A stretch of 61,657 bases of DNA. Origin: Christensenellaceae bacterium. Its GTDB lineage: Bacteria > Bacillota > Clostridia > Christensenellales > DTU072. Below the pieces are notes generated by a model, which saw only the letters and a program-made list of their open reading frames with translations, did no database searches and was not told the DNA's origin. Both the position numbers and the translations under genes were made by a program. Shown in pieces: positions 11,584 through 53,727 of the stretch. Within the stretch, counting starts at the first letter, position 1. Every line of letters starts with the position of its first letter. The stretch is from contig JAIRMA010000099.1 of NCBI GenBank assembly GCA_031259085.1, forward strand, positions 1-61,657, given 5' to 3'.

Positions 11584-11586
11584 AGG

Positions 11587-30710: not shown

Positions 30711-33034
<2,324 letters not shown>

Positions 33035-35650
33035 TCAAAGTTGCTTTTCATCATTTCTTATAAACAAATTTTCAACAACAGGTGTTGAGACAACTGAAAA
33101 GCTAGCCCTCTCGCGGGTAGCGGAGATTAAGAAGCATGAGCCCTGAGGATTACTCGTTATTTCATCTTGTTCTGCTGTATTTATGCCTCCAGATTTTTCA
33201 TAAAGAGTTACAAGTCTATGGATATCTTGAGGAGGTAAATTAAAGATGAAAGAATACTGGCAGTTTGCAAAGATTGCTTGAGTTTTAGAAGATACTTCTT
33301 GGTTTGCTGTGCCGTCTCCTAGATTTTGTGTTATAAAGAATAACGATCCTGCATATTTTCTAATGCGTTTAGCCATTTGGAATAGGAAGTCTAAAGCAAT
33401 AGGAAATTTTGGATCTGTAAAGGCATGTGCTTCGTCTGCTACTATAACCGTTCGCACAAGTTTTTTCCTGTCACGGTTTTTGTCTCTGGTGTTAATTATT
33501 TCTTGCTCTAAAAAACGCATGACTAAAAGCATTTGTGCGTTAGCCACGATCTGATTTTTATTAGCAAGCAGTGACTGAAAGTTGAAAACTGTAAATTCCC
33601 TGTCCGCACTGAGCGTAGAAAACCCATTCCACAGTGATGAATAACGTCCACCAGTTGCGAATTTTGAGATGTAAGTCTCTGCGCGTTGCAAATTTTGTGT
33701 TAGGTGTGGGTTTGAAGTTGTTTTTACGTTTCTTAACTTGGACTGCACCACACTTAACAAATCATCAAAGACAGGAAATTGATCTGGTCTAAGGGTAGTG
33801 AAATCAGTATTTTCACTAATTCCTCTTTTTGAGTAACTCTCTATTATAAGATTATTAACAAGCTCAAGCGTATCTGGGGAAATACCCTCTAATGTAATTT
33901 TAAAGAAACTCTCTAAAGCTATTAAATGATTTGTAAAGACACTTTCGCTTGTGGCAGTTTTTCCGTCATCTGTTAAGAGTCCATATATATGAAAAGGATT
34001 AATTCGGCCTTGAGTCGCCGCTCCCACATCTATTTTAGCCCCGCCCACATTATTGCAAAGAGTGGAAAACTCGTTTTCGACATCCAATATAAAGACCCGC
34101 CAATCGTCTGCAAAAAGGTTTGTAATAATAGTCTTTGCAGCATAGGATTTTCCGCTCCCAGGTTTTCCTAGGATTAAACAATTAGAATTTGTGTGATTAC
34201 CATCGCGCTTAGATATATCTAGCGCTACGGGATACTGATTGCAACCTAATACAATCCCATCTGGCATATCTATTATTGAAGTTGAGACAAAAGGGAAAAC
34301 GGCAGCTAGAGATGAAGAATTGATCCCGCGTTCAAAGCGTTTAAGAACTCGGGTAGCTGATATGTTTGAAGCTAAAAAGCCTTGCATCTGCATGGATCTA
34401 AGGAGAGATAATTTAAAGCCACAGCTGATGATTTTGTGTCGAATAGCGCGGCGGACCGCCACAGATGGTTCTTTATTGTTATTAAAAGCTGTTATTGTAA
34501 TGGAACAATCAAAGAGGGATTCATTTTCATTTTGTATTGCTTGCAGGGTAGATGCCATTGTTTCAAGATGGCTCTCATTTGCAACAACCTCACTAGCTTT
34601 AGCGATATCAGATTCTCTACTGCCGATTTCGTTTACTGCTTTATCGATGCGTCTAATTGCTTTGATCCTGTCGATTGGGCGGATCTTTAAGACGACTTTA
34701 GTGTTGTTTATGTTAAACATATCTGCGCCCCAAGCGTTGCTAACAGATAAAGGATAATCTGATATTGCTACACTAAAGGCCTCGACATCATCTGCTGTGT
34801 AGGAGGAGGATGAAAATTTGATTTTTTTAGGGATAATATAGTCAATAAAGTTTTCTGGCTTAACGTCCAAAATTTCACGCTCATCAAAGAATCTGGTGTT
34901 ACAATATTTTAGAAAGTTTACTGTCTCTCTAGCATTAGTAGCCTCTGCTACCAATTCGCACTGATGGAGAATTGATACGGCAAGCGATACAGTTTCTTGT
35001 AAGCGTTTTTCAGTGGATCCATAAAAAACAAAATAGAAGAAAGGCCTATATTGTTTATCTAGATTATTAAGTCTATCAATTTGTTCTATTCTCGATTTAA
35101 GAATAGACCGTTTCACATCAGCAGTAGCAAGATTTACTTTTTCAAAAAGCGAAGCGGAAAAAGGATCAAGATTTAAAGGTCTATCAATCTTTACTAAATC
35201 CAATGCCCCATCGTCATCTACTAGTCTTAAGAGCCTCTCTAGAACAGAAATTTTGTTGTTTTGAGCGTGCTCAGTCAAGAGAGAAAATTCGATTTGCCCA
35301 ACTGAGATGACTTTAGAAAAGTAGTCAGGATAAACGATAGTTCCATCGTCAAAGATTTTTGTATAAGGAATGAGTCTTTTGATTTCATTGCCCGTATAGT
35401 TTTTTTGAGCGAACAAAAATTGGATTACAGAACCAACGTGGGTATAGAATCGGCCTTCTCCTGTAATTGGGGCAAACAGAAGACCTAAGGGAATTGCTAA
35501 ACCAATTACGATGAAGATCTTGCCAGGGATTGAAGAAAAAGCTATTATGCCAAGGAAGAGTAGGCAAAACCCAGCCACAACAAAATCTGACATTGTGAGT
35601 CCTTTTATAATAGTAGCTTTAACCTTTGTGTTTTTTGGAATTACTCTCAT
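33035..35650 (-). CDS. VirB4-family ATPase fused to a VirB3/PrgI-like membrane segment
   Basis: The 871-aa protein combines two N-terminal transmembrane helices (about residues 22-60: FVVAGFCLLFLGIIAF and KIFIVIGLAIPLGLLF), resembling the small PrgI/VirB3 protein, with a complete VirB4 ATPase. Walker A is GKPGSGKS (about 495-502) and Walker B is VIVADEAHAF (about 735-744), followed by FFITQNLGD. It should power assembly or transport in a type IV secretion machine at the membrane. The start at 35650 is chosen because it has AAAGGA upstream and follows the previous stop codon by 4 nt. Upstream in-frame ATGs lie inside the VirB6-like gene. It is the last gene of the island and has the only intact ATPase motifs in it. 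Confidence 0.88.
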   Translation of the reverse strand: MRVIPKNTKVKATIIKGLTMSDFVVAGFCLLFLGIIAFSSIPGKIFIVIGLAIPLGLLFAPITGEGRFYTHVGSVIQFLFAQKNYTGNEIKRLIPYTKIFDDGTIVYPDYFSKVISVGQIEFSLLTEHAQNNKISVLERLLRLVDDDGALDLVKIDRPLNLDPFSASLFEKVNLATADVKRSILKSRIEQIDRLNNLDKQYRPFFYFVFYGSTEKRLQETVSLAVSILHQCELVAEATNARETVNFLKYCNTRFFDEREILDVKPENFIDYIIPKKIKFSSSSYTADDVEAFSVAISDYPLSVSNAWGADMFNINNTKVVLKIRPIDRIKAIRRIDKAVNEIGSRESDIAKASEVVANESHLETMASTLQAIQNENESLFDCSITITAFNNNKEPSVAVRRAIRHKIISCGFKLSLLRSMQMQGFLASNISATRVLKRFERGINSSSLAAVFPFVSTSIIDMPDGIVLGCNQYPVALDISKRDGNHTNSNCLILGKPGSGKSYAAKTIITNLFADDWRVFILDVENEFSTLCNNVGGAKIDVGAATQGRINPFHIYGLLTDDGKTATSESVFTNHLIALESFFKITLEGISPDTLELVNNLIIESYSKRGISENTDFTTLRPDQFPVFDDLLSVVQSKLRNVKTTSNPHLTQNLQRAETYISKFATGGRYSSLWNGFSTLSADREFTVFNFQSLLANKNQIVANAQMLLVMRFLEQEIINTRDKNRDRKKLVRTVIVADEAHAFTDPKFPIALDFLFQMAKRIRKYAGSLFFITQNLGDGTANQEVSSKTQAIFANCQYSFIFNLPPQDIHRLVTLYEKSGGINTAEQDEITSNPQGSCFLISATRERASFSVVSTPVVENLFIRNDEKQL

Positions 35651-35654
35651 AATA

Positions 35655-37082
35655 CTAATCCTTTTTGTTTGAATCAACAGATCCAGATGGTGTATTTTTC
35701 TCAGGTAGTGCAAGAGATTTTTGAGCGGACTCTTTATTTTGTGTTTGATTTGATGAATTTGAGGCATATCCACTTGATGTATTAGCCCCGCCTTTTAACG
35801 CATATTTTAAGGATTTGTCTGTCAGTTTTGCCATTACTTTTAGTCCAGCATATCGAGCTAGGCCAGTAGTCACGTTACTAAGACCTGCGGCAAACTTTCC
35901 GGCACTAGATAAGGTTGAAGCGTTCATACCACCTTGTGTTACTGAAGTGCCGTTTGCAATAGCAGTTTGTTGTTTTTTGTGAGCAACGCTTCGTATAGAA
36001 TCTCTCATTTGAGTAATAGCGCTAACACCCCCTCCATTATTAGAATTGACACTAGCTTTCACGTTTTGGGTCTTGCCAAGACCAATGACTGATGAAAACA
36101 ATGTTGAAGCACCGGCAGCAGAAAAAACGCCACCTATTATCAATAAAAATGAGAGTATTGTATTAGCTGACGAATTCTCCCCAGCGGCAGTCAAACTCTC
36201 TAGAGCCGTTCCAAACATATTAAAAACATTGAATGATATAACTGTGCCATAGATAGATAAAATTTTGCCAGTGAGATTCTCCCGCCAGGATTTGAAGCGT
36301 TCTCCATCATCAAGAGGCATAGAAGATATAGTAAAAGGCATGACGAGATACAGTAAAATAACATCGAAAATCCGTCGCGTTAGTTTAAGTAGCATTGAAG
36401 CAATAATGATCACAAGGATCAATGACACAATAAACAAAAGGAAGATATTAGTTTTATATAGATCTACGATCCCACCGCCTAGATAAGTCTCCCCGTGAAG
36501 AAAATATTCAATAGAACCATCCTCTCCCTCTTTCTCTATAGTAGTGTTAGGTGCAATTTCGAAACCCGCAGGAGTAGATATATAAAAGCCAAACACATCT
36601 AAAGCAAGAGAGTTAGGATTAAAATCTTCTGGACCATATCCATCTCTCCACCCTGACTCTGCAACACAGAGCTTCATAATACGTTGAGAAAATGTCATGT
36701 TATATTCAAAAGTTGTTGCATTATCAACAGTCTTTAGAAGAACGTTAGATACAGCAATCCCACCAAAAACTACAGCTTGGGTTATAAACATTGATAAAAC
36801 TGCGCCAAAAAAAGTGCCGATGATTTTTGTTTGACGACGTTTAGGATCCGACATTGTCTTTATTAGGGCTACAACTGTCAGGATTGCAAGAGAAGCCAGA
36901 GATATTATTACAATGTAGATCCAAGCAGAAGAGATAGCATCATTTTTAATGAAGGATGAGACTAAATCTGTATCACCACTGCCTAAGCCTGCTAGGAATC
37001 TAAACAGAACATTCATGCCGTCGAGCAAACTCAACATCGCAAAAGAAATTTGCGCAAAGAATTTTTTAATCATTACTTCCAT
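35655..37082 (-). CDS. VirB6/TrbL-like polytopic channel protein (Mbov_0396-like)
   Basis: The 475-aa protein has about seven hydrophobic segments. Its core, RRIFDVILLYLVMPFTISSMPLDDGERFKSWRENLTGK in consecutive pieces, is typical of the VirB6-like proteins of Gram-positive and mycoplasma conjugative elements (called Mbov_0396 family there). It should form part of the inner-membrane channel. The last 130 residues are polar and low-complexity (S, N, K, Q rich) and probably cytoplasmic. It lies 59 bp after the pilin-like gene, with a strong hairpin between them, and 4 bp before the VirB4 gene. A second in-frame ATG at codon 4 with GGAAG upstream is an alternative start. Confidence 0.8.
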   Translation of the reverse strand: MEVMIKKFFAQISFAMLSLLDGMNVLFRFLAGLGSGDTDLVSSFIKNDAISSAWIYIVIISLASLAILTVVALIKTMSDPKRRQTKIIGTFFGAVLSMFITQAVVFGGIAVSNVLLKTVDNATTFEYNMTFSQRIMKLCVAESGWRDGYGPEDFNPNSLALDVFGFYISTPAGFEIAPNTTIEKEGEDGSIEYFLHGETYLGGGIVDLYKTNIFLLFIVSLILVIIIASMLLKLTRRIFDVILLYLVMPFTISSMPLDDGERFKSWRENLTGKILSIYGTVISFNVFNMFGTALESLTAAGENSSANTILSFLLIIGGVFSAAGASTLFSSVIGLGKTQNVKASVNSNNGGGVSAITQMRDSIRSVAHKKQQTAIANGTSVTQGGMNASTLSSAGKFAAGLSNVTTGLARYAGLKVMAKLTDKSLKYALKGGANTSSGYASNSSNQTQNKESAQKSLALPEKNTPSGSVDSNKKD

Positions 37083-37097
37083 ACTTAAACCAGCCTT

Positions 37098-37121
37098 TGC
37101 GGGCTCTTAATAGAGCCCGCA
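37098..37121 (-). promoter_or_regulatory. operon-internal hairpin after the pilin-like gene
   Basis: TGCGGGCTCT-TAAT-AGAGCCCGCA is a perfect 10-bp GC-rich stem in the short gap after the pilin gene. No T run follows on the minus strand, so it is more likely a 3'-end stabiliser or processing site than a terminator. Confidence 0.7.
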
Positions 37122-37140
37122 CAAATAATAGACTATTAAT

Positions 37141-37458
37141 TTACATAGTAGTTTCCATCCAGTTGCCTAACCAGCTTATAAGACCGACTACGACCACAGA
37201 TAAAACGAATATAAGCACAACACCGAGTATAAAGTTCTTTAAATAGGCTTTTGCCTCACGTTGCTTTTCCTGGTTGCCAGCCTGCCACCATTTAAGACCT
37301 ATATAGGCTGCCCAGAACACTACTAGTGCAGATATGACTGCAATTATGTACGGATAGAAATTTTTAAGCAACTGGGTTAAATTGTTAGTCAATTTATCCA
37401 GGGCTTGTGCATCATTAGATGCTAGCGCAGAGAGCGCTGATAAAAATGAATTTTTCAT
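37141..37458 (-). CDS. VirB2/pilin-like small membrane protein (Mbov_0395-like)
   Basis: The 105-aa protein has two transmembrane helices (about residues 35-58 and 77-97) separated by a short basic, hydrophilic loop (QAGNQEKQREAKAYLK). This is the architecture of VirB2-type pilins and of the Mbov_0395 family found next to Mbov_0396 in conjugative elements. It should assemble into, or line, the secretion channel or a surface fibre. AAAGGAGAT precedes the ATG. It lies directly before the VirB6-like gene and after the giant surface protein gene. A hairpin after its stop could raise the stability of this part of the mRNA, which would fit a pilin needed in many copies. Confidence 0.78.
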   Translation of the reverse strand: MKNSFLSALSALASNDAQALDKLTNNLTQLLKNFYPYIIAVISALVVFWAAYIGLKWWQAGNQEKQREAKAYLKNFILGVVLIFVLSVVVVGLISWLGNWMETTM

Positions 37459-37474
37459 TTTTGTATTGATCTCC

Positions 37475-37514
37475 TTTGTTGATATTTATTTTTGTTTGTT
37501 GATACTTATTTTTG
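37475..37514. repeat. two tandem 20-bp repeats upstream of the pilin-like gene
   Basis: TTTGTTGATATTTATTTTTG (37475-37494) is followed at once by a copy with one change (37495-37514). The core CCTTTGTTGATATT also occurs at 51687-51700, upstream of the VirD4-like gene. This may be a shared regulatory or processing site of the island. Confidence 0.55.
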
Positions 37515-37583
37515 TTTGGCGAATAAGCCTTGTATAATAATTGGTTATGATGAATTAATGTTAGTCATAGATTAAAGCCTCCT

Positions 37584-40500
37584 TTATGATGCTTTTACGA
37601 ATCTTCCACGAATAATAAAGAATACAGCTAAAGCTAAGAGGACACCTCCTACACAGATTAAAACAATTGTAAAGGGATTCAACTGCTTTATAACCGCAAA
37701 CTCATATACTCTTACATTACCAAGCTCATCAGTCAAGATTATTTTATATGAACCGCTCTCTTCTATGGCCCCTGGGATCAAGAAATCTTCTATTAATGTA
37801 CCGTCTTTGTATAGCTCGGCAGTTACATTACTCTTTGAAAGATTTGATAGCGAAACCACACCGTTTTTCTCTGTGATTTTTACTTCAGGAGGGGTGCAGT
37901 CTACGGTTTGTACTAACTGATACTCTTTGCCGCTTGATAATGATTTTAATGTGATATAGTAAGTCCCAGAGTCGATAAAATTTATTTTGTTACTAGTCAC
38001 AGGACACGAAACTAATCCTAATGTAACACTTTTTATTTCAAATTGTTCTGGGATGACAAGAGACAGTTCCTTAACACGTGTGGGCAGTATAGTAAAGTCC
38101 AAAACAGATACATTTTTAGCAAGATCAGTAGCCGTTACGATATAGCGCCCCACTGCCTCAAATCTATCGTTCATTTGAATGGCCTCCCCATTCAAGAGTG
38201 CCGTCGCTTTAACAGGCTCATCGTATGATAATTTTACGGCTGATGTAGTTAACAGGTTGTTTTCAACAGAGGCAGTCATGCTAACGCTCTTGTCAATTGT
38301 GATGGATATTGTTGCAATATTGCCAGCAGGATCAACTGCTTTGAAATAATATAAGCCTTCTGCAGAGTAAGTACTGCCATGTGTTATGTATTGTAGTGAA
38401 GTTTCGTAATTGAATGACGTCTCAGATATAATTGCAGTATTGTCATCTGTAGTTATGTTGATGTCCTCATTTGTTAAACCATTTTCTATATTAGATATAG
38501 TGAACTTAGGTGTTACCAAATCTATTATCAAAGTAAAATCAATCATATTTCCAAACAGGTCCTCAATAATTACTGAGTATGTCCCATGCTCTTCTAAAAC
38601 AGAGCCTTGTGGGAGGGAGACTCCATTAAGTAAGCAATAATAATTTTTAGAGTCCTCTAAGACCTTAATCATTATGGATTGATTAGTTATAAAGGAACCG
38701 TCTGCCAATTTAACTACTTGCTTATTAAAGTCAAAGGAAACTTCGCTGTCAAGGTAAATCTCAAAGGTCGATTCGTTGCCAACTTTATCTTTTACTGTGA
38801 ATGAATGTAATCCGTTAGCAGTAATAAGCGTTCCATTAATGTAAGAGTTAGTAACACCAGAATCCTTAGAAACATATCCCAGGACAGAAACCTCTGCCCA
38901 TTCAATTTTGAATGGTGTATTAATAGAGCTGCCCGCAGAAATTTCTGTCTGCCCTGTTAAAATGCGATATAATGGGGGCTCGGCATCTAACTCAAAGGAA
39001 TATTCTAAATATATACCAGGATCAGTCTTAGATGCTAATACCAAAAGGTATTTAATGGTTTTGCCAGATTGTGGATTAAATGTTGCAATATAGGTGTTTA
39101 TAGGAGAGTCGTAGACAGGGAATATTTCCGAGGTTGGAATTTTCGCCCCAGATGGAACTACTGTATATATAGTTAAGTTGAACTCATCAGCATAAGAGAA
39201 AGTGACAGTTTTGCCAGACACACCCTTATTTGAAACACCAGAGAGCAACCCTGACGGCATGTCTTTTTCGAAGAAAATAGGTTCAAATTCTGTGGTTCTA
39301 CCATAGATATCTGTGATTATAAAGGTATATTTGCCACCACTGGTGATTTCGTAATATGTATTGTAAATATCAATTGCTCTACCCTCAGAATCTGTTTCTA
39401 AATATTCTATACTGCCATCAGAGAAAATTTTTGCAAGTTTTAAAGAGGTGAAAGCGTTATATTGATCATTTTTGTAAATGTAAACGGTTAATTTGTTTTC
39501 TGATGCCGATAGTGATGAATATAACCACGATGGAATTTTCCCAGCCACGATAACATTAAATCTAAGAGTGTTGTATGATCTATCAAATATTGTGACAGTA
39601 TATAATCCTGACCCCAGCGTGGAGTTCAAGACAGGAAGGGTGTCGCCTTTTGTGTAAAGGCCATAGAAACTTGTAGAGGTAATAGAAATCCCGATGAAAT
39701 CAGAATCCATATTATCAAACAACTCAACGACACTAAACTCATTAACATAGAATACCCCACTCATGACCCCTATTAAATCTTTAGTTATAACCTGAACTGA
39801 ATTGCCGTCATCTCGCAGGATCGATGCTGATATAGTAGGCTCTGCAAAATCTATGAATAAAACAGCTGATTCCTCATTGCCACAAAGATCACGTTCAGAA
39901 TAAAGATAATACCCCTCATAAAGATGGCCATTTTCGTTGAGCAGAGATTCTAAAGACACCCCATATTTAATTGCAAATTGAACGGGAGTGACTAAACCAA
40001 CACTTGAGGCTATAAAGGTAAGCGTTGCACTGACTGGAGACAAGGCGGAGTTTGAGACAGGAACATATTCTTTTCTAACGAGATAGAGTGGAGTTTTGGA
40101 GTCTATAAAGAGAGGTTTAATGGGCGAGTTAGCAGTGAGTGATGAATAAATCGTATCATAGGTGTTTTGATAATCACTAAATGAAAAAGTTTTTCTGCTT
40201 GATATATATTTTTTAGCATAGTACTCAACAGCAAGGTCTAAAGCCTCGTATGAGTCGTATTTGAGTATTACAGTTTCATTTGAAGTAGAGACATACGTTA
40301 TGACATCGCCTACCATCACAACACGATACTCTTTTTCTTGAGCCTTAGCAAAAGCTAGGGCCTCCTCCCAATTAGGGAAACTATATGACCCTGCTATATT
40401 AGGTTTAGAAGTTACTGCAAAAATGTTATATGGCAGATCCACAGTGTACCATGTGCTCTGTTTAAAACTCTCTTCGATTAAATCTATGTTTTTAAAGTTA

Positions 40501-43500: not shown

Positions 43501-46500
43501 AGCGAGCTAGGATAAAAAGATGTTACAGCCAAATTAGAGGTAAATATAATCTCATCATTTGAGCTCAACTCAATTGATTCAAAGAAACGATCCTGAACAG
43601 ATATGCTTATAAGCTCAGTGCTTTTGTAAACAGGTGTAATGTGAAAAGTTTTATTCCAAGAGATTACAGGACGATCCCAATCTGTAAAAAATTGATACTC
43701 AGTAATGTTTCCAGCCTTGTCTGTCGCGGTTATAAGATGTGCGCCCTCAGACAAACCTGCACAAACAATTGTGCTAGTTGTATTAATCGATTGTGAATCT
43801 AGAAGATATCCAGATAGTTTATTTGTATCAGTTATAGTGACTGATAATGAAATGTCTTTTGTGGCATAAGGTTTTGAGGCAAAATCAACATCTGGTTTAG
43901 ACGTGTCTATTAATAAAACATTTGGTGCAATTTTATCTATGACGAAAGAAACGCTAGAAACAGACCCTACGGGATCAACGAGTTTAAAATTATAGACGCC
44001 ATCAAACATAGTAGACGCCTTGAATGTCGAAGCTAAGACAGGTTGGTATTCTCCGCCATCCAAATTATAGGTAAATTCAGACAAATCAAGGAAATTTTCG
44101 TTAACAGTAATAATAACAGTATCATTCACATTGTAATAAGCTAAAGCTTCTGTTTCGTATAGTGCTTTATTTAAAGTAAGCACAGGGGTTTGTAAATCGA
44201 GATAGAATGTGACAATTGAAATATTACCTGCTTTATCTACAGCCTTAAACGTGTGCTTGCCGTCATAAAGAGTGCTACTGTTGTAATTTAAAGCAGTTGT
44301 TAAACCCTCATTAAAATAAAATGTGCAGTTTGAAAACTCATCAACTTGAAAAATAATAGATGTGTTAGATGGAAACCAGCTATCAGATTGGACAGAAACG
44401 CCATTTTTTAGTAATTTTACTTCAGGCGGAACGGAATCAATAAAAAACGCACCAGATGACGAATTTTCAGCGAGGTCAAAAACCTTAATTTCATAGTTCC
44501 CGTCTTGCAAATTGTTTATAGATGACAAATCTAAAAGATTCTCACCGTTAATCAAAATGCGTGAGAAATTCATGTCAAAATAAGATACTTCAAGAACATC
44601 ATTGCAATTAGCAGAAAAGCCTTTTCCTATAGAAATCCCATTTTTTGTAAAAGTGATGGTAGGGGCTGTTTTGTCTATTATAAAATAGAAAGATGTAGAG
44701 TTCCCAGCCTTATCAAAAAATGTATAGGAATAGGTATTATCTGTAAGTTTGGAGGTATTGGTTATTTCTAAGCTCCAGTATAAATTAAGAATATTTTCTC
44801 TAACACCATTTAATGTTAGATGACTAAAATTATCATCTGTTACCTTAATCGAAAGACATCTATCTGAGCTTGCATAAAAACCGTTAAGCACAGGAAGAAG
44901 ATCTAAAGAAAATTGTTCTATTGCGGGTGGAGCTGTGTCTACAATAAAATTGAGTATTGAATACTGTTCGCTACTATTTGTGACGCGCACAGCGTATTTT
45001 GCGTCAGGGAGCGATTTCACATCAAATTCATATGAGTAAAAGCCATCTTCATTAGCTACTTGGGTTATATTCAACGTTGTCTGGCCTAAAAAGGCTTCAC
45101 TATAAAATGAAGAGCCTACAAACAAGATCAGTTCATCCGATGCGGATAGGTAAATGTCAGAATAATGTTTAATATTGTTTTTTAAGAAAAAGATGTCAGG
45201 GGCAGAAGTCCCATAAAAGAAACTTTTCTCAGTTATGTTTCCTGCTCTATCTGTGACCATAACAGTATGAGTGCCGTATGCCGCTGAGGGCGAGGAGAAA
45301 TATAAGATATCGTCCTTTATTGAATAAGTAGATTTATCAGAAAGGAGTACTATTTTGTATTCAGTAGCTTCAATAATATTTAGAGGAATAGTTGAACCCA
45401 TCGGATAGGTGTCGGCTAATGTGAAGCTAGGAGGAGTTTTATCTGTTGTGATAGCAATTTCTGTGGCATTACCACTACGATCTACGACTTTAATGGTGTG
45501 CGATCCATCCTTTAATTCAGTGGTTAAAAAGCTTCTAGAAGAACCTTTGTTTATATCATCAATGAAGAGACTGTCCATGTTGATTTCACCAATAATTATA
45601 TCAATTGTATCAAGGGCATTGAATATAGTTTTTGATAAAGAAATAACAGGAGCTGTGTAGTCTACAACAAAATAAACATAGGATGAATTAAGTGCTCCGT
45701 CATATACAGTAAAGATATGTGTGCCAGCAAGGAAAGTTTGAGAATTAACAGTAATATCGCACCAAGATGAAATCTTAGAATTATCTAAATAAACGCATGA
45801 AACATACACATCATTAATAATTAGAGATAACAGGTCCTGGTTTTTATAGTAATACTTGCCATCTAAAAACTGGATATTATTCATAGTCAACACGGGTGCT
45901 GTTACATCCACGTCAAAAGAATACTCACTAAAGTTGCCAGCTTTGTCAAAAGCTTTTAAATTATGGCGACCGTTACCTAAAGTTAGTGCTGATATAGTAT
46001 AGGGCGATTCAAAAAGTTGATCGTTTAATAAGAGTTTTGAAAAGTTTGAATCTTTTACACTAATTGTTAGTGTGTCATCAATGCCATACATGGTTTGGTT
46101 TAAGGCCAATACAGGAGTTACAATTGTTATTATTGGGACCTCTGTGTCTAGGACGAAATGCTTGACCGCAATATTTCCTGCGCTGTCATATACTATGACC
46201 TCCCAATCACCATTTTCCCAAAAGTAATTAGTTGCTTGATAGCCTAAAAAATCATAAACAATAGTATTTGTAATAAAACTAATGAGACGATCGAAATCGA
46301 AGAATATGTAATTAGTTATTTCATTATCGATTGCCTTATATGCATAAGTATAAAAGAGTGATCCTTGAACAGCATAAGGACTCTCACTATCTAAAATAAT
46401 ATAACCGTCCGAGCTGTGCCAAGCGCCGCGATATCCTATAGTCTTTTTCTCCGTTTCAATTATTGCATTTATAGCATCCTCACGATTATAGAAAATGGTG

Positions 46501-49283
46501 TGCGAAGGATTTGAGGAAATATTATAATAGCGCTCATCAAAATATATATATTGTGCCTTGAATGAATCCCATTCTGGTATATGGATATATTCGCCAGAAA
46601 CCTTTTTCGAAAACACGAAATAGCTATCAGTGTCCTCTGTTATGGAAAAAGATACATACGAGGTAGTATAGTCACCATCAAGTACTGCGCTACGATCTGA
46701 CATTCGTGACATATTAAACATGGGCGGCGTAAAATCAAGATAGATGTTAAATAACAGAGACGGGTTTTTAGCTTTATCAACAGCCAAAAACGAATACCAA
46801 CCATTACTGAATGAGTAATCAAAAGAAATGGAATTAATATTATCATCTGTGCTCATTGTAGCGTTATAAATGGTACATTCAACCAAAGATTTCTGAGAAT
46901 AATACCAATAAATTTTATAACTATTAACATCATTGCTAGTTATAGTAAAAGACTCATTTACATAGTCCCCAGATTTAATTTGATTTGATGAAGAAAGCAC
47001 TGGAGGAACAGAATCTATAATAAATATTTGGCTTCCACTGCTATTGCCGCTCTTGTCAAAAACAATAACAGTATGTGGTCCATCAGCAAGTCCTGAGGCT
47101 AAAAAGCTTTTTATTGGGCTATAAATGTAAAAATCATCAATAGTTGCGTGTGAATAATCATCATTATCATAATTTATAGTAACGGTTTCATTTTTATTGT
47201 AATAAGGATTTATCTCAAAAACAGGCGAGACTCTGTCAACTGTGAAATAGATTGTTGTTGTGTTTCCCGCTTTATCCACTACTTTGATTGGATATATGCC
47301 ATCATTAAGAGATTCAACATAAATATCACGGGTTGTGAGTTCCTCTGATTTAGAGGCAACTGTTAATGAAGATAAATATGGTTCTTTAATGGAAATCTTC
47401 AAATAGCCAGTTTTATTAATATAAGTAGTATCACATGATAGTTCTGGCGGAGTTCTATCTATATAGAACGTGAGGGTAGTTATATGTCCCGCGTAGTCAG
47501 TGGCGCTGAACAAATGAGAACCTTCGCTGAGTGCAGCAAGAGTAGCGCCTGACAAAGTATAACTAGAGCCTGTAATATTTATCTCATCCTCGTCTAGAGA
47601 CAGTAATTGTATATCTGAGCTAGAGCATGATAACAAGACGTTTTGATTATCCCTGAAATAGTTAGAAGAATTGCCAGCTGGAGTATTAACAGATAAAGTT
47701 ATTGCAACTGTGTCTAACACAATAGATAGTATGTCACTAACGTTTCCAGCTTTATCTGTAGCCATAAACTCCCACTTTCCGTTGTTATTTAAAGAATCCT
47801 TGATTGTTACATAAGAGTCTGTGGTAATGTCCCAGGCGCCACCGTCTTTTCTGTAAGAGATATTTGCTATTGCTGAATTATCAGAGGCTGAAATAGTTAT
47901 TGCCTCGTTAGAATATAATTGGTTATTATAAGTGGTGCTAGCAGTATTTGATAATGTGGGATTTGTAAAATCTAGAACAAAATACTTTTCGATAGAGTAG
48001 CCCACCGCATCGGTAGCACAAACTTTCCAAGAGCCTTCCTCCCAAAAATAATTCAGACTAGAATAATTCCTTAGATTAGCTACAACATTTTTAATATAGT
48101 TTTTTGCGCGTTGAAGATCAAAAAAAACAGCATACGTAGTTGTTTCAGAAACTGTGGAAGCATATACATAGTACGTCTTTCCGCTTTGAGACGCATTCAT
48201 TTCTGTTTCATTTGCATACTCGTGATTAGCGGGAAGTCCTGTGAAGTTTGAACGCGTAGATAAATTAACTAATTCTTTATTAAGCATATAGGTTTCATAT
48301 TCGCTGGCACTATAAAAAATATTATGTGAATATTTTTTAGCAGTAAAATCAAGCTCACGCGAATCATAATAGAATCCAGCAATCTTAAATGACTCCCAGG
48401 CGGATTGTAGATAATAAGTATCCCCGCTTAAGCGATAAAAAGAGAGTGTTACCTTTTCATTTGACGAAAATGATAGCACTTGATTAAGGGAGCTCCCAGA
48501 CGCCACAGGCAACCCATCAAATGCTTTGATATCTAACGAAGGAGTGGTTTTATCAATTTTAAAAGTACAAGAAGACATATTTCCCGCTCTATCGATCGCA
48601 GTAATGGTGTGTTCCCCCTCTTTATAGTTGCTTGTTAAGATAGACCCCGCGGAGCCGAATGGCAAAGCAGTATCATCTATTAGGACGGAATAAAGATGGT
48701 TTTCTTTTATAGTATAGTTAACTCGCTGAGAATTGGCATAAGAAGAGGCAACACCCTCAATAATTGGTGCAGTAAAGTCTTTAATAACAGAGCCAGAAAC
48801 ATCATAATAATTATATTGCTCTCTTCCATGATTTGCTGGAGTGTGGATGTTTACAATTGACATTGAGAAAATCCCCTCAGAGGGAAACTCATACAAATTA
48901 TGAATTACATTTTTTTCAGAATCTTTAATAATTATGGAAAAGGTAGATATATCCGAACCGTTAATTCTTAATTTAAAACTAATTTTATAATCAGTATAAG
49001 TGTAGTTTTCCTCCGCAATATAAAAATATAATTTTGATGAGTCAGTAATTCTGTACGGAGCTGTACTTACATAGGGCTTTTTTGCATTACTCACTTTAAA
49101 ATAGCCTGTTACAAATTGAGAATCTTTGTTTGAAACCGCAAGCTCTCCAATGTATAATGTAAAAGTCTCGTCATCTGCTACAGCCACCGTGGTATCAGGG
49201 GTAGCTGAAACAAAAGAAATTACAATAAATGCAAAAAACGCACACAATAAAATAATGAATTTATGAGGGAAAAATTTAGACAT
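37584..49283 (-). CDS. giant Ig-like-repeat surface protein of the secretion island
   Basis: The 3899-aa protein has a signal peptide (about residues 8-27, FIILLCAFFAFIVISFVSA) and a C-terminal transmembrane helix (last ~30 residues, FTIVLICVGGVLLALAVFFII) with a short basic tail. It should span the envelope with nearly all mass outside. The body is about thirty diverged repeats of 75-110 residues. Each ends in a pattern like YDKAGNYSVSTF-VDKDAP, resembling bacterial Ig-like or Big domains. A few inserted segments (about 330, 950 and 2,900-3,000) break the pattern. There is no LPXTG motif. It lies 5 nt after the VirD4-like stop with GGAGG inside that gene, so it is part of the operon. It is probably an adhesin that brings a partner cell into reach. 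Confidence 0.82.
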   Translation of the reverse strand: MSKFFPHKFIILLCAFFAFIVISFVSATPDTTVAVADDETFTLYIGELAVSNKDSQFVTGYFKVSNAKKPYVSTAPYRITDSSKLYFYIAEENYTYTDYKISFKLRINGSDISTFSIIIKDSEKNVIHNLYEFPSEGIFSMSIVNIHTPANHGREQYNYYDVSGSVIKDFTAPIIEGVASSYANSQRVNYTIKENHLYSVLIDDTALPFGSAGSILTSNYKEGEHTITAIDRAGNMSSCTFKIDKTTPSLDIKAFDGLPVASGSSLNQVLSFSSNEKVTLSFYRLSGDTYYLQSAWESFKIAGFYYDSRELDFTAKKYSHNIFYSASEYETYMLNKELVNLSTRSNFTGLPANHEYANETEMNASQSGKTYYVYASTVSETTTYAVFFDLQRAKNYIKNVVANLRNYSSLNYFWEEGSWKVCATDAVGYSIEKYFVLDFTNPTLSNTASTTYNNQLYSNEAITISASDNSAIANISYRKDGGAWDITTDSYVTIKDSLNNNGKWEFMATDKAGNVSDILSIVLDTVAITLSVNTPAGNSSNYFRDNQNVLLSCSSSDIQLLSLDEDEINITGSSYTLSGATLAALSEGSHLFSATDYAGHITTLTFYIDRTPPELSCDTTYINKTGYLKISIKEPYLSSLTVASKSEELTTRDIYVESLNDGIYPIKVVDKAGNTTTIYFTVDRVSPVFEINPYYNKNETVTINYDNDDYSHATIDDFYIYSPIKSFLASGLADGPHTVIVFDKSGNSSGSQIFIIDSVPPVLSSSNQIKSGDYVNESFTITSNDVNSYKIYWYYSQKSLVECTIYNATMSTDDNINSISFDYSFSNGWYSFLAVDKAKNPSLLFNIYLDFTPPMFNMSRMSDRSAVLDGDYTTSYVSFSITEDTDSYFVFSKKVSGEYIHIPEWDSFKAQYIYFDERYYNISSNPSHTIFYNREDAINAIIETEKKTIGYRGAWHSSDGYIILDSESPYAVQGSLFYTYAYKAIDNEITNYIFFDFDRLISFITNTIVYDFLGYQATNYFWENGDWEVIVYDSAGNIAVKHFVLDTEVPIITIVTPVLALNQTMYGIDDTLTISVKDSNFSKLLLNDQLFESPYTISALTLGNGRHNLKAFDKAGNFSEYSFDVDVTAPVLTMNNIQFLDGKYYYKNQDLLSLIINDVYVSCVYLDNSKISSWCDITVNSQTFLAGTHIFTVYDGALNSSYVYFVVDYTAPVISLSKTIFNALDTIDIIIGEINMDSLFIDDINKGSSRSFLTTELKDGSHTIKVVDRSGNATEIAITTDKTPPSFTLADTYPMGSTIPLNIIEATEYKIVLLSDKSTYSIKDDILYFSSPSAAYGTHTVMVTDRAGNITEKSFFYGTSAPDIFFLKNNIKHYSDIYLSASDELILFVGSSFYSEAFLGQTTLNITQVANEDGFYSYEFDVKSLPDAKYAVRVTNSSEQYSILNFIVDTAPPAIEQFSLDLLPVLNGFYASSDRCLSIKVTDDNFSHLTLNGVRENILNLYWSLEITNTSKLTDNTYSYTFFDKAGNSTSFYFIIDKTAPTITFTKNGISIGKGFSANCNDVLEVSYFDMNFSRILINGENLLDLSSINNLQDGNYEIKVFDLAENSSSGAFFIDSVPPEVKLLKNGVSVQSDSWFPSNTSIIFQVDEFSNCTFYFNEGLTTALNYNSSTLYDGKHTFKAVDKAGNISIVTFYLDLQTPVLTLNKALYETEALAYYNVNDTVIITVNENFLDLSEFTYNLDGGEYQPVLASTFKASTMFDGVYNFKLVDPVGSVSSVSFVIDKIAPNVLLIDTSKPDVDFASKPYATKDISLSVTITDTNKLSGYLLDSQSINTTSTIVCAGLSEGAHLITATDKAGNITEYQFFTDWDRPVISWNKTFHITPVYKSTELISISVQDRFFESIELSSNDEIIFTSNLAVTSFYPSSLLELSFDYDVIMLTARDKSGQFENMLFYIVSQLPSLKVYKNEVLAEEGIYFAPNDYMSFEVSSSSLSSTFYLDEQKIAGSFKFEDALTLSNGTHTIKMIDAAGNQLSFSFEYDDVCPVLIVRKNGRPLTEIDYVSISSDSIVITNGDVLTISATDLHLKSFAFLEDPFSEIIVYGSDQAPGLISYEALDIAGNKTFITLLVDKSPPIISLYKGGIIMPDGTHYNDFDAYITINVADYYLLLYNNLPFDGVAEWDVKTRYEGVHKFEAYDAAGNYSVITFVVDRTSPEIIFNKTASSNGVLYYQADEIVEFDVIEANLAYIKVNGTLINNFYFDTNSRLDGTYSIVIADYSGNSITRHIVIDKTAPEVAVRNGYAGTPMTEGLFASSSSTLYVLFNDANKDYWMLDGTRMDSFPQPSNLENGLHTLIGYDKAGNYSVSTFTVDKDAPVFYLFSKTAYNNNFYYNGDDVVNYYYYDVNFTYVLLNGVEVEGVISTSLLTTTTNTLEAYDLANNFTRITFILDNINPTLTLKKNGTDALLENEYYNARDIISIACSDVGSSIESVSLDGVETVLRSWASNTLSDGTHIISVIDVAKNYTSITFHVDNTPPEFNVQGYYNLDSIIDVYVADENLDVFTIDGNSVKSSYIPYDSLEEGTHTLYAKDKAGNTSSIQFIIDFTNPTLVLYKNSQVVESGFFIKASDTFSIFVNDLFLERVLFDGEFTSTRLWKSEALDERVHTIEVYDLAGNCTLAYLTVDMTAPFLDLQEFYIAGETINLTVSDLTTVTVLLDGVEISDAVLTADSLEEGTHNIVLTDQANNNFQSSFLVDLSAPVLNLSGFSPDGSFISSFVTETYGDLTITVSDVSTVKLWLKHDDADFYYYSVSSFILYGFDRNAGYWQFYAEDNAGYTSDVYSVTAYFWPPSVDITGIVTVTDSTLYTNQEVTIVKDPYSRYVYIFNEHSFYPSQDTLIIEAIESNEGKHSIYVVDAFNRPSELYVIILSFTHNFKNIDLIEESFKQSTWYTVDLPYNIFAVTSKPNIAGSYSFPNWEEALAFAKAQEKEYRVVMVGDVITYVSTSNETVILKYDSYEALDLAVEYYAKKYISSRKTFSFSDYQNTYDTIYSSLTANSPIKPLFIDSKTPLYLVRKEYVPVSNSALSPVSATLTFIASSVGLVTPVQFAIKYGVSLESLLNENGHLYEGYYLYSERDLCGNEESAVLFIDFAEPTISASILRDDGNSVQVITKDLIGVMSGVFYVNEFSVVELFDNMDSDFIGISITSTSFYGLYTKGDTLPVLNSTLGSGLYTVTIFDRSYNTLRFNVIVAGKIPSWLYSSLSASENKLTVYIYKNDQYNAFTSLKLAKIFSDGSIEYLETDSEGRAIDIYNTYYEITSGGKYTFIITDIYGRTTEFEPIFFEKDMPSGLLSGVSNKGVSGKTVTFSYADEFNLTIYTVVPSGAKIPTSEIFPVYDSPINTYIATFNPQSGKTIKYLLVLASKTDPGIYLEYSFELDAEPPLYRILTGQTEISAGSSINTPFKIEWAEVSVLGYVSKDSGVTNSYINGTLITANGLHSFTVKDKVGNESTFEIYLDSEVSFDFNKQVVKLADGSFITNQSIMIKVLEDSKNYYCLLNGVSLPQGSVLEEHGTYSVIIEDLFGNMIDFTLIIDLVTPKFTISNIENGLTNEDINITTDDNTAIISETSFNYETSLQYITHGSTYSAEGLYYFKAVDPAGNIATISITIDKSVSMTASVENNLLTTSAVKLSYDEPVKATALLNGEAIQMNDRFEAVGRYIVTATDLAKNVSVLDFTILPTRVKELSLVIPEQFEIKSVTLGLVSCPVTSNKINFIDSGTYYITLKSLSSGKEYQLVQTVDCTPPEVKITEKNGVVSLSNLSKSNVTAELYKDGTLIEDFLIPGAIEESGSYKIILTDELGNVRVYEFAVIKQLNPFTIVLICVGGVLLALAVFFIIRGRFVKAS

Positions 49284-49288
49284 AAGGT

Positions 49289-51586
49289 TTATACCTCCAT
49301 AGTATTAATGTAACTAACAGTTTTCAGTTTTGGACATTCAGGATGCTTTATTTGATAATTAGCGATTAAATCATTGAGCTCATTTTCAGCAGAAATGATA
49401 CGCTCACAGAGTGCTGACAAAGTCGCCAAATTCAAACGGGCAAATAATAACAAATCAGTGTGGGATTCTAGAATCTCTCTGATTAAGCCAGGCATTAATT
49501 CAGAGGGAGTATTTAAAAGTTTGTCCCCCAAAGTGGTATCTGGTAAAAAGTTTTTTATGTTAAGAATTGATTTATTCTTGGCAATTTTCAGTGACTTCAC
49601 TTTTTTTTCAGTTTTTTCTATACAATCCAACATGTGTTGATCAAACAGCATATTAGATTCCTTTGAAACTGACAATATCTCTTGGGATATAGGATTAAAA
49701 CAACTTTGATTTGACACAGTATTCTTAAAGAAGGCAAGCGATGTTTCATGAGGTTCTGTCTCGAAAATGAAGTTTTTATTTACTTCAGGCAACACTTCAT
49801 TTATCTCCTCATTAGAAACAGAGCACTCTGTATTGTTTAAGAGTGTTATTTTAAAACAAAGTTGATTGATATTACAAACAAGCAAATTCTTTGATTGAGC
49901 TAATATTGACTCTAGTGATAAAAGATCATCTAAAGGGTGATGTGCATTTGGGATGCGTTTTATCACATCAGCCTCTTTTGTGATCTCATCACTGTCAACA
50001 TTCGGTTTGCCTTTAATCAAGGGAATGAATGACTTGAGAGATTCATGATGCGTTGGATCTGCTATTATCGTAATCCTAAAGAAATCCAAAAGTTCAGGAA
50101 GTGCTGACGCACCATAAGTATTGGATAAAGTTTCATAGCTTTCAACAACACTCACGAACACGATACCTTTAGCGGGGGCAGTGCGTAAATTTTTATCAAA
50201 GACGGAAAGCGCAGGTATTGATCCAAAATCGTTTACGATGATAAAGCAGGGATTAGTCAGCTTTTCGACCGCTGAGTTTTGAAATAGTTTGTTATGTGTT
50301 GATAATTTGTTTAGTGAAAAATAGGCTTGATTAATCAGAACTGTCACCAAATTGCTTTGAAACGGCTCTTGAGAATATGATACAAAAAGCACATGAGGTG
50401 ATTCGTCATATTCCATAAAAGAAAAATCGCTAGCGGATGTTATAAATCTTATATCTTCTGACTTTAACATATTTAAAAAGCGTTTGATAGACGATAAATA
50501 TAATTTAAAATCTAGAGAAGACGCAGTTAGCAAGGGTTGGACAAAAGAGTTAATGAGCGGATTGTTTTTATGTCGATCGAAATAATCTTTTAAACAGACT
50601 ATTGCATCTGGTCGCATGTAGTTATATAACAAGTTATATATGTTATGTAAACACAAGTTTGATTCAGTTAATACCCCGTTTGATACATCATCAACAAGCG
50701 CGATTAGAATAGCAATTATAAAGTTTCTAACTACATCCAAATTAACTTGTTGTAATCTATTGGTGTCAGGCAAAAGAGCTCTAATCACGCTTTTTAAATA
50801 GCTTTGGCATTCATTGAGTAACACCTCTTTAAATAATTTGTCATTAGCCTCAGCTTCAGGAAACGTTTCAAAAGATTCACCATTGACGATATATTTTCCT
50901 AAATTGTTTTGAATTGGAGCATTAAGCTTTTTAATAATATCAAGAGCTGGCTCAAATGGATTAAGACGCATAGATTGATTAGCCCGGTTATAATTAATAT
51001 AATCTATTTTATAACCAAGCGCCTTTAACAGCCCACCATGTTTTTTATATAAACTACCATCTTGATCAATAATTACAAATGAAGGGGTGTTTTTAAATTT
51101 AGATGCGGTTTCAATAAAAGAGTCTATGAAGCGGGCAGTTTTGTCATGATTCTTTGACCCTATAATGTTAACGTGAGAGAGCGACTTTGTTAACAAAACA
51201 GTAAGCTTTCCGTTATTGTTAACAAAGGACAGAGGGATTCCTTTTTCTGTTTTGCTGATTTTTTTAATATCCGATCTTATAAAATCGCTAGACTTGTCTA
51301 GAACTTTATTAGGCATAAAAAACTTATTAATTTTCATATCGGCATTGGATGGATGGCGACTTTTTAGGGTACCGCGCAACAAGAAAATCAGAAATAGAAT
51401 TAAGACGCCAATGAGTATTGATAGAAACAAATTAGAGGTCATTATATCTAATAAGATAAGGACTTGATCCATAAAAAAAGAAATAACTAAAACACAGGAA
51501 GAAAATAATAAGAGAGAGAAAAAAAAAGCAAAAGGAAACTTGCGTTTGTTTTTAAATTCAGTTGATTTACTAGAATGATTAGACAT
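49289..51586 (-). CDS. VirD4/TraG-like coupling protein with degenerate ATPase motifs
   Basis: The 765-aa protein has two N-terminal transmembrane helices (about 18-38 and 51-71) and the TraG/VirD4 layout: FVIIDQDGSLYKKHGGLLKALGYKI followed by RLNPFEP. The Walker A site is eroded to IGSKNHDKT (about 142-150), where functional relatives have GxxGxGKT. The Walker B site is FIIVNDFGSIPAL (about 448-460), where DEF is usual. The sensor glutamine region reads VSVVES. ATP hydrolysis is therefore doubtful. The start at 51586 has TGGAGGT upstream. The last 200 residues are acidic or mixed and unfamiliar. It may be a scaffold that recruits substrate without turnover. Confidence 0.75.
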   Translation of the reverse strand: MSNHSSKSTEFKNKRKFPFAFFFSLLLFSSCVLVISFFMDQVLILLDIMTSNLFLSILIGVLILFLIFLLRGTLKSRHPSNADMKINKFFMPNKVLDKSSDFIRSDIKKISKTEKGIPLSFVNNNGKLTVLLTKSLSHVNIIGSKNHDKTARFIDSFIETASKFKNTPSFVIIDQDGSLYKKHGGLLKALGYKIDYINYNRANQSMRLNPFEPALDIIKKLNAPIQNNLGKYIVNGESFETFPEAEANDKLFKEVLLNECQSYLKSVIRALLPDTNRLQQVNLDVVRNFIIAILIALVDDVSNGVLTESNLCLHNIYNLLYNYMRPDAIVCLKDYFDRHKNNPLINSFVQPLLTASSLDFKLYLSSIKRFLNMLKSEDIRFITSASDFSFMEYDESPHVLFVSYSQEPFQSNLVTVLINQAYFSLNKLSTHNKLFQNSAVEKLTNPCFIIVNDFGSIPALSVFDKNLRTAPAKGIVFVSVVESYETLSNTYGASALPELLDFFRITIIADPTHHESLKSFIPLIKGKPNVDSDEITKEADVIKRIPNAHHPLDDLLSLESILAQSKNLLVCNINQLCFKITLLNNTECSVSNEEINEVLPEVNKNFIFETEPHETSLAFFKNTVSNQSCFNPISQEILSVSKESNMLFDQHMLDCIEKTEKKVKSLKIAKNKSILNIKNFLPDTTLGDKLLNTPSELMPGLIREILESHTDLLLFARLNLATLSALCERIISAENELNDLIANYQIKHPECPKLKTVSYINTMEV

Positions 51587-51706
51587 AATGACCTCCATTA
51601 AGATTTGCGAATTTAGTTCTCGCATGGAACGTTTAAGTGAGCACTTGTCAGTGCAGTAATTAGCTAAAAGAATTATATTAAGAAATCCTTTGTTGATATT
51701 TTTTGT

Positions 51707-51746
51707 TTACCAAGCTGGATAGGATTTTGCATATCCAGCTTGGTAA
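51707..51746 (-). promoter_or_regulatory. operon-internal 15-bp hairpin before the VirD4-like gene
   Basis: TTACCAAGCTGGATA (51707-51721) and TATCCAGCTTGGTAA (51732-51746) are perfect complements with a 10-nt loop. They lie in the 201-bp gap after the 142-aa gene. No T run follows on either strand, so this is more likely an mRNA stabiliser, a processing site or a protein-binding site than a terminator. Confidence 0.75.
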
Positions 51747-51787
51747 GAGGAGCTAATAAAAAATCACAGTAATTATGGTTCAATACT

Positions 51788-52216
51788 TTAACGATTTCGC
51801 CATTTGTTAAGAAATTCAGCTGTTAACATAGCATTCTTTTCTGCAACCAGATATTTTGGTAATTGATCTAGAGTCCCATCCTCAAGTTGCTCGCTAGTGA
51901 CTTCTAGCCCGCCCATCTTCGTTGCTTCTAAATTGTACAAAACGGTCAGTAAACGTTCGCACATAGATAAAGATACGGCATTTTGATCAATTGTCATTTT
52001 TAATGACTCGAGTTCCTTCATGCTTTTCTTGACTACTGATTCACTATAGTTACCAAATTTTTTATAACAAAGTTCTTGTAGCCCAAGGTATACAGCATTG
52101 TTTATCAGGTTGTTAACATTATCACAATTGTCGTTAGACAATTGCGACAAATAACCAATTATGTTTTTGTCTTTAATTGAAATGTCAATTTGCTCTTGTG
52201 CGTTTTCAGAATTCAT
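51788..52216 (-). CDS. 142-aa protein of unknown function in the secretion island
   Basis: I do not recognise the family. The protein is hydrophilic, without signal or membrane segment, and mainly helical by composition. Blocks such as NNLINNAVYLGLQELCYKKF and SVVKKSMKELESLKMTI look like an alpha-helical DNA- or protein-binding fold. It starts MNSENAQEQIDISIKDKN with an AGGAGG-type site (complement of 52219-52224) 5-6 nt before the ATG. It lies 18 bp after the ArdC-like gene and clearly belongs to the same transcript. Its place between ArdC and the VirD4-like protein would suit an accessory or regulatory role, but that is inference only. Confidence 0.7.
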   Translation of the reverse strand: MNSENAQEQIDISIKDKNIIGYLSQLSNDNCDNVNNLINNAVYLGLQELCYKKFGNYSESVVKKSMKELESLKMTIDQNAVSLSMCERLLTVLYNLEATKMGGLEVTSEQLEDGTLDQLPKYLVAEKNAMLTAEFLNKWRNR

Positions 52217-52234
52217 TTGGTCCTCCTATCGTGA

Positions 52235-53248
52235 TTATATAGCGATTATTTGTTTTTGCTTCTCTTGAGGCTTAGACTTAGCCTTAACAAACCCCTCAAC
52301 ATATTGTGCTATTTTGCAGGCGTCTTTTAAAGCATTGATAAGAGATAAAGGATCTTTTATAATGCATTCCCGCCAGTTTGCAATATACGCCGCATGGTTT
52401 TTAATATGCTCATCAGTTAAGGAAAGACCATATTTTGCCCCAATAACGATTGAAGCAAATTCTGCACGCAATTCTTCTAGTGCATATGGCTCACTGTTCT
52501 GAGGATAGCCTAAGTTCCTTTTAAGTCTAGAACCATGCCCTGTGCTGTGACCAATTTCATGAAGAGCAACACCATAAAAATCACTGGCTGATTTAAATGT
52601 GCCTCTGGGTGGCAAGTGAATAGTGTCACTATTCAATGAATAATAGGCGCCTTTATATCCGTCATAATAAATTGGGGCTTCTGAGGCAGATAGAATTGCT
52701 TCGAGAGCTTCATCGCGTTTGATTTTATTTGCATTGGTGACGATAAAAGGAGTTATGTTCTCTAAGAGAGATGCATTATATACTGTATAACTCCTAAACG
52801 GGCGTACTACATTTTCCCTAATGTATGCACTGCGGTCTTTAGGCGACATGGTTGCAATATTAGACGCGCCTTGATCAAACGGCTTTTTTGTTTGTCTATC
52901 ATAAAACAAAGAGAATTCGATTTTAACACCTCTTTTCAAAACCTCGTCAGATAAACCATCTCTAAATATGTATCCAGCTTTTTCTATCTGTTGCAAAGTC
53001 AGCCACCTAGGATCGCTATATCCTTGTGTGGTGAGACATATCGAATTAATGCCACTGTAGGTCACTTTTGTAATTGGATTCATAGGAGAACCATAGCAAT
53101 CGGGATTGTTACCAAAGCTCCAACCCTGTTTCCACATTAAAGAGTTGTTCTTTTCTAGATTTTCCAGGACGTTTAAAACGGTCGCCTGCTGGCGTTCTGT
53201 TAAACGCATCAACATTTGATTAAAAGTCCCATCATTGATTTCATTCAT
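52235..53248 (-). CDS. ArdC-type antirestriction/zincin protein
   Basis: The 337-aa protein joins an N-terminal ArdC single-strand-DNA-binding region (about 10-160; WKQGWSFGN, NPITKVTYSGIN, FRSYTVYN) to a zinc-metalloprotease-like domain. That domain has HEIGHSTGH (HExxH at about 230-234) and the downstream YALEELRAEF that supplies the third metal ligand. Plasmid ArdC proteins protect incoming DNA from restriction. The ATG at 53248 has TGGAGGT upstream; in-frame codons up to 53302 run into the DnaA-box leader and are rejected. It is the first gene of the secretion-like operon. Its presence points to a conjugative ancestry even though no relaxase is seen. Confidence 0.85.
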   Translation of the reverse strand: MNEINDGTFNQMLMRLTERQQATVLNVLENLEKNNSLMWKQGWSFGNNPDCYGSPMNPITKVTYSGINSICLTTQGYSDPRWLTLQQIEKAGYIFRDGLSDEVLKRGVKIEFSLFYDRQTKKPFDQGASNIATMSPKDRSAYIRENVVRPFRSYTVYNASLLENITPFIVTNANKIKRDEALEAILSASEAPIYYDGYKGAYYSLNSDTIHLPPRGTFKSASDFYGVALHEIGHSTGHGSRLKRNLGYPQNSEPYALEELRAEFASIVIGAKYGLSLTDEHIKNHAAYIANWRECIIKDPLSLINALKDACKIAQYVEGFVKAKSKPQEKQKQIIAI

Positions 53249-53292: not shown

Positions 53293-53342
53293 TTATCCAC
53301 AATTAACAGAGAGTTATCCACATTTTAGATTAGTTATCCACA
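53293..53342. promoter_or_regulatory. three perfect DnaA boxes in the secretion-operon leader
   Basis: TTATCCACA occurs at 53293-53301, 53314-53322 and 53334-53342, all in the same orientation and spaced 21 and 20 bp (about two helical turns). They lie between the promoter array and the ArdC start, inside the transcribed leader. DnaA could act there as a roadblock, or the cluster could be part of an element origin or a titration site. Confidence 0.8.
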
Positions 53343-53618: not shown

Positions 53619-53727
53619 CTGTTTTGAATAAACTTAATCAAAAATTTATTTAAATTCAATTAACTATCTGTTCAATGGTATATAAAGTTTTTAAAGGAGC
53701 ACACGCAAGTGATACTTTCTATAAAAC

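Follow-up and report, generated by a model that had tools for sequence, protein, structure and literature searches.

A gyrB-linked type IV secretion island of Christensenellaceae without a relaxase and with a motif-dead VirD4: a likely domesticated conjugation machine

The 61,657-nucleotide stretch analyzed here (the window) makes up the entire contig G000:C7 of a Christensenellaceae metagenome-assembled genome (MAG) of 2.35 Mb that is 92% complete, and it carries a seven-gene island beside gyrB that encodes a type IV secretion system (T4SS). The island appears to descend from a conjugative element that carried a MobL-type relaxase. In the lineage of the window the relaxase gene is gone and the coupling protein, VirD4, has lost both of its ATPase motifs, whereas those of the VirB4 ATPase are intact. 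We consider it very probable that the island is domesticated and no longer conjugative. The explanation we favor, at a probability of about 0.55, is that a conjugation machine, now domesticated and inherited vertically, has lost DNA pumping and serves as a contact or adhesion organelle; that adhesion or contact is its main role we regard as an even bet. Gene content, homology, synteny, motif loss and conservation were observed directly by comparing the three species of the genus (the window genome G000, G001, and G002), the sister genus (represented by G003), and an order-wide sample of 396 Christensenellales genomes, in which about 30 VirB4-bearing loci were read gene by gene.

VirB4 relatives were found in 65 of the 396 genomes, and the gene order common in the order is ArdC, a homologue of the 142-aa protein of the window island, MobL relaxase, VirD4, giant immunoglobulin (Ig)-like protein, VirB2, VirB6, and VirB3/VirB4. 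The gene directly preceding that of VirD4 encodes a MobL-type relaxase of 395-440 aa in at least 21 loci; most of these 21 proteins have the HxD...HxH motif and all four representatives tested passed the MobL profile, PF18555. The closest outgroup, G025:C75, which is the sister lineage in both the VirB4 and the VirD4 trees, has exactly this ancestral order, relaxase included. The corresponding site of the window is an intergenic gap, in which tblastn searches with the relaxases of 21 relatives detected no remnant (best E value 0.007, at an unrelated place outside the gap). A chimeric assembly as the source of the gap was rejected, as the junction between the genes of the 142-aa protein and VirD4 is contiguous in three MAGs. 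Searches of G000-G003 (85-92% complete) with PF18555, PF03432 (Relaxase), and PF02486 (Rep_trans) gave no match, nor did a search with PF01076 (Mob_Pre), although the control for this last profile was also silent and hence the result proves little. An initial annotation of this DNA had reported no relaxase, and this holds for the island and for the profile families searched in the four genomes. The annotation had also proposed that homologous islands always carrying a relaxase in many genomes would make this an ordinary conjugative element. Since a MobL relaxase is usual among homologous islands, the island goes back to an ordinary conjugative ancestor, and its absence from the window lineage is a derived loss. 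No integrase was recognized among the annotated neighbors of the island; att sites were not searched. With neither a relaxase nor a coupling protein having the Walker A and B motifs of a functional enzyme, the island was rightly judged not to be a self-transferring element.

The second loss concerns VirD4. In the gyrB-linked proteins of the window, G002, and G001:C14, the Walker A position reads GSKNHDKT, GSSIDNNS, and GNRSSQRA, and the Walker B position VNDFG, VNGFE, and LTDFC, respectively. Both motifs are also lost in two VirD4 copies of G003 and are kept in 28 of 28 VirD4s outside this clade as well as in the paralogue G001:C187. Misalignment of the Walker A region was rejected because the columns on either side of it are well aligned and the frames of the dead copies contain no Walker A pattern at any position. 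Judged from these sequences, VirD4 has probably lost its ATPase activity. The literature library searched contained nothing on pseudo-ATPase coupling proteins, and no second VirD4 was found in G000 or G002. On the VirD4 tree the window and G002 lie 2.0 apart, against 0.13 on the VirB4 tree. This ratio of about 15 (15.6) compares with 1.3-1.9 in five pairs having intact VirD4. Note that the topology of the VirD4 tree is unsure owing to long branches, which leaves the rate contrast unaffected. Nonsynonymous divergence (dN) was estimated by NG86 together with position-wise differences; YN00 estimates of dN/dS (dS, synonymous divergence) failed on saturated pairs, and the synonymous sites of the window and G002 are saturated. 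Between these two genomes dN is 0.077 for VirB4, 0.086 for VirB2, and 0.072 for GyrB versus 0.54 for VirD4 and 0.42 for the giant protein, which is 58-71% identical over its last 1,000 (membrane-proximal) residues versus 26-59% in its distal part. The VirB2-like pilins are 90% identical.

The loss of the relaxase and of the VirD4 motifs might also mark the relic of a dying integrative and conjugative element (ICE) heading for loss. Such decay is displayed by G046 (C57, C81), in which the VirB4 frame runs into ParA-like sequence, the surface gene consists of its last 375 codons, and a VirD4 fragment keeps Walker A. However, all open reading frames (ORFs) of the island are intact in the window and G002 despite saturated dS, dN/dS stays below 0.2 in every case with a computable dS, and VirB4 and VirB2 are as constrained as GyrB. 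Even VirD4 retains its full length with a dN/dS of about 0.18, where about 54 stop codons would be expected in a neutral frame of 765 codons. Moreover, the DnaA boxes described below are maintained in three species and the promoter array in two. A relic is therefore a reading to which we give almost no credence.

The three species of the genus all have the island at an orthologous site, which answers the question, raised by the initial annotation, of whether it is fixed beside gyrB. The order U245/U237/SIS, island, gyrB is common to the window and G002, and the G001 island is split over two contigs, one (C14) with SIS, U237, ArdC, the 142-aa protein, VirD4, and the surface protein and the other (C15) with VirB6, VirB4, and gyrB. 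A T4SS beside gyrB is absent from all nine other genomes of the family that were examined, the sister genus included. Other islands exist. A second VirB4, 71% identical, lies on G000:C87, with a DnaB-type helicase gene and a transposase after it; hence this genome held more than one island. A paralogous island is located beside thrS at G003:C85, and G001 has a second island, C187, with an intact VirD4. Such paralogues could supply a relaxase and/or VirD4 in trans, so that transfer of DNA or protein persists, and their flanks are hidden by contig ends. Arguing against help in trans are the lack of MobL, Relaxase, Mob_Pre, or Rep_trans matches in G000-G003 (with the silent Mob_Pre control noted above), the lack of a second VirD4 in G000 or G002, and the inactivation of VirD4 common to all three species. 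We consider this arrangement quite improbable.

The seven consecutive minus-strand ORFs described by the initial annotation were all found, and their coordinates are given in Table 1 together with those of the flanking features.

Table 1 Features of the gyrB-linked T4SS island, with positions in the window
Feature	Position	Strand	Properties
Tandem promoter array	53590-53933 (repeats 53555-54015)	-	Three 146-bp direct repeats, 157/158-bp period
Three exact DnaA boxes, TTATCCACA	53293-53342	+	20-21 bp spacing, between promoters and ArdC
ArdC-like protein	52235-53248	-	PF08401 (ArdC N-domain) and PF18818 zincin, HEIGH motif
142-aa protein	51788-52216	-	Homologues in relatives are encoded immediately ahead of the relaxase
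Missing-relaxase site	51626-51787	none	162-bp intergenic gap between the 142-aa protein and VirD4 genes
Motif-dead VirD4 (coupling protein)	49289-51625	-	PF10412 (4e-8), Walker A and B sequences as in the text
3899-aa Ig-repeat surface protein	37584-49283	-	Signal peptide, Big_13/BiPBP_C repeats, C-terminal transmembrane anchor
VirB2-like pilin	37141-37458	-	T4SS_pilin PF18895 above cut-off
VirB6-like polytopic membrane protein	35655-37082	-	NF045848 (1e-41) and NF045889, both above cut-off
VirB3-VirB4 fusion ATPase	33035-35650	-	PF19044 (2e-18), NF045975 (4e-171), motifs GKPGSGKS and VADEAH intact
gyrB	30711-32657	-	Adjoins the island after VirB4; conserved neighbor in this genus only

With intact VirB4 Walker motifs and with VirB3 and VirB6 encoded beside virB4, the island is a monoderm (MPF_FATA-like) T4SS. 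VirB4 starts at M42 (about position 35650), the longer form of the ORF overlapping VirB6, and VirB3, assigned from position and topology, consists of two transmembrane helices fused to VirB4. The proposed kinship with mycoplasma elements was borne out, as VirB6 passes the mycoplasma ICE profiles and VirB4 scores 570.8 bits with NF045975 (the mycoplasma ICE ATPase), just below the curated cut-off of 590. The absence of VirB8 and of a peptidoglycan hydrolase (VirB1), which the initial annotation had noted, is not distinctive, as no known family was matched above cut-off by the genes of the VirB2-VirB6 interval in those relatives that were tested. Nor is a giant surface protein peculiar to the window island, since relaxase-bearing relatives also encode one of about 1,500-4,500 aa.

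The conserved VirB4 might instead drive secretion of proteins without an active coupling ATPase, exporting the ArdC-like zincin or another effector in the manner of Bordetella Ptl or Brucella VirB. Proteins are secreted by these machines without VirD4 (PMC12857230), VirB4 is intact and strongly conserved, and the HExGH zincin motif of ArdC is kept in each of the three species. However, no effector candidate with a recognizable toxin domain is encoded in the operon, ArdC is ancestral given its presence in relaxase-bearing elements, and the known secretors that lack a coupling protein are diderm and use a two-step pathway. We consider a secretion machine of this kind unlikely. The neighboring 142-aa protein has a ribbon-helix-helix-like sequence with a long C-terminal helix and is probably a relaxosome accessory protein or a regulator; its Foldseek matches to Arc/ParD were not significant.

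Protein export is a candidate function for a different group of Christensenellales islands. Five loci (G025:C73, G347:C2, G330:C5, G243:C23, and G172:C21) form a separate, supported VirB4 clade and have an intact VirD4, a giant surface protein, VirB6, VirB4, and often a small lipoprotein, with no adjacent MobL relaxase. MobL was not matched in the whole genomes of G347, G330, G243, and G172, whereas G025 encodes a MobL relaxase in another island. As this other island, C75, is the sister of the window island and keeps its relaxase, the loss in the window lineage was independent of that in the five-locus clade. The T4SS locus of G347 adjoins molybdenum-cofactor genes, and two proteins of about 2,000 aa follow VirB4 in G025:C73.

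Upstream of ArdC lies an unusual control region. Each repeat of the promoter array has a perfect sigma-70 promoter (TTGACA-17-TATAAT) with a GTATC-N5-GATAC palindrome just downstream; the entire window contains four such perfect sites, three of them in the array, versus 0.09 expected. A comparable array with a 156/157-bp period exists in G002, made up of four perfect copies with an altered palindrome. The palindrome is possibly an operator, perhaps for the ribbon-helix-helix-like 142-aa protein. Each of the three species has the DnaA-box triplet at the head of its island (in G001 at C14:6895-6944), and a reversed control pattern gave no matches in 58 genomes. A similar triplet occurs once in each of 11 further sampled genomes, and G000, G001, and G002 have one additional triplet each, next to hemW in G000 (C69:17326) and G002 (C116) and on C127 in G001. 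Given this separate chromosomal triplet, the T4SS triplet is an extra, genus-specific site, and we hypothesize that it is tied to expression of the operon.

The window lies in the origin region of its chromosome, as it holds dnaA, two dnaN genes, gyrB/gyrA, rpoD, and dnaG, and the probable oriC is a DnaA-box cluster at 11337-11523 between the two adjacent dnaN genes (10167-12767). Beside dnaA, two genes (14761-24868) are kept in all three species; one encodes a BspA-type leucine-rich-repeat protein of 2,484 aa, the other a lipoprotein-like protein of 859 aa and unknown family. A tetrahydrofolate (THF) riboswitch (8037-8137) lies upstream of an energy-coupling factor (ECF)-type transporter S component gene (7395-7946). 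Positions 1-2000 have about 50% GC versus 24-39% elsewhere and encode a PIN-domain protein preceded by a short ORF in a toxin-antitoxin-like arrangement; this end may be a recent acquisition or a contig-end chimera. The nearest named relatives of the source genome are the Christensenellaceae MAGs Cc175_bin14 and Pcl387_bin85, which from their isolate codes we take to be probably of termite-gut origin.

A domesticated contact or adhesion organelle would have arisen as follows. Its ancestor would be a MobL-type conjugative element of Christensenellales, either integrative or carried on a plasmid, that became fixed beside gyrB before the split of the three species, with deletion of the relaxase gene from the operon and loss of the nucleotide-binding and hydrolysis motifs of a VirD4 that stayed full-length. 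Selection would then have retained the surface-structure part, namely the VirB3/VirB4 motor, the VirB6 platform, the VirB2-like pilin, and the giant Ig-repeat protein. Powered by VirB4, a short pilus would be assembled on VirB6. The giant protein, held in the membrane by its C-terminal transmembrane helix, would reach out to bind a partner, which could be a gut bacterium, a protist, or a surface; pilus assembly, adhesive function, and the kind of partner are thus inferred. The initial annotation had proposed contact-dependent delivery, adhesion, or DNA traffic. The loss of Walker A and B in every orthologue weakens delivery and DNA traffic, and adhesion is the better supported of these proposals.

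The same gene losses, with VirB4 kept and the functions of VirD4 and relaxase lost, characterize ComB, and the island might likewise be a machine importing DNA. However, no competence gene was recognized in the island (ComEC was not searched), and DNA uptake leaves the giant surface protein unexplained; we judge a ComB-like role very improbable.

Several observations weigh against a purely adhesive, domesticated organelle. ArdC and the 142-aa protein, which by homology are accessories of DNA transfer, were also retained. VirD4 still does something, given its long ORF and low dN/dS, and a dead VirD4 does not exclude secretion, since machines lacking VirD4 can secrete. Help in trans from the VirD4 of G001:C187 or the VirB4 of G000:C87 is possible, and the four genomes G000-G003 are incomplete MAGs. 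The more specific proposal of a contact organelle outside Patescibacteria, having a catalytically dead structural VirD4 and an operon under the promoter array and DnaA triplet and possibly tied to replication, is tentative and we rather doubt it in this full form.

One order of bacteria thus offers a graded series, from relaxase-bearing elements through islands with no recognized relaxase and an intact VirD4 to an island with the relaxase gone and VirD4 motif-dead, and the steps from conjugation machine to other organelles become directly comparable. A pseudo-enzyme coupling protein, if that is what this VirD4 is, would provide T4SS biology with a natural separation-of-function mutant. Moreover, Firmicutes T4SSs can have giant surface proteins and VirB2-like pilins, the latter being common in the conjugative elements compared here, whereas a recent review regards pilins as lacking from Gram-positive T4SSs other than those of Patescibacteria (PMC12857230).

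Among known systems, the MobL elements of Christensenellales (such as G025:C75, G035:C1, G094:C12, and G190:C4) share the operon order of the window but have a relaxase, an intact VirD4, and, where looked at, ParA, SSB, or integrase. Mycoplasma ICEs (ICEA/ICEB; Mbov_0395-0397) resemble the island in the VirB6 and VirB4 profile scores given above. They differ in that no DDE transposase was seen in the island. Their VirD4/TraG is essential for transfer (PMC6030558), whereas that of the window is motif-dead. The nearest monoderm parallel is the T4SS of Patescibacteria, which is relaxase-less, chromosomally fixed, often near dnaA/dnaN, and has a VirB2-like pilin (PMC12102498); the window island is likewise relaxase-less and chromosomal and has a VirB2 pilin. 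In the Patescibacteria system neither a VirB3-VirB4 fusion nor an adhesin was detected, and VirD4 is usually encoded away from virB4 (PMC12102498), whereas the window island has the fusion, a putative adhesin, and a VirD4 inside the operon but without ATPase motifs. The nearest VirB4 relatives found, in a tree built without Patescibacteria VirB4, are those of Christensenellales. Bartonella Trw, a machine that mediates adhesion and has no coupling protein (PMC2883598), is the nearest precedent. In both systems the coupling function was lost and pilus genes were kept, and adhesion would be a putative role of the window island. Trw is a diderm system with amplified VirB2/VirB5 and the coupling protein gone (PMC2883598, PMC12857230), whereas the coupling protein of the window island is present but dead, and only one pilin accompanies the giant surface protein there.

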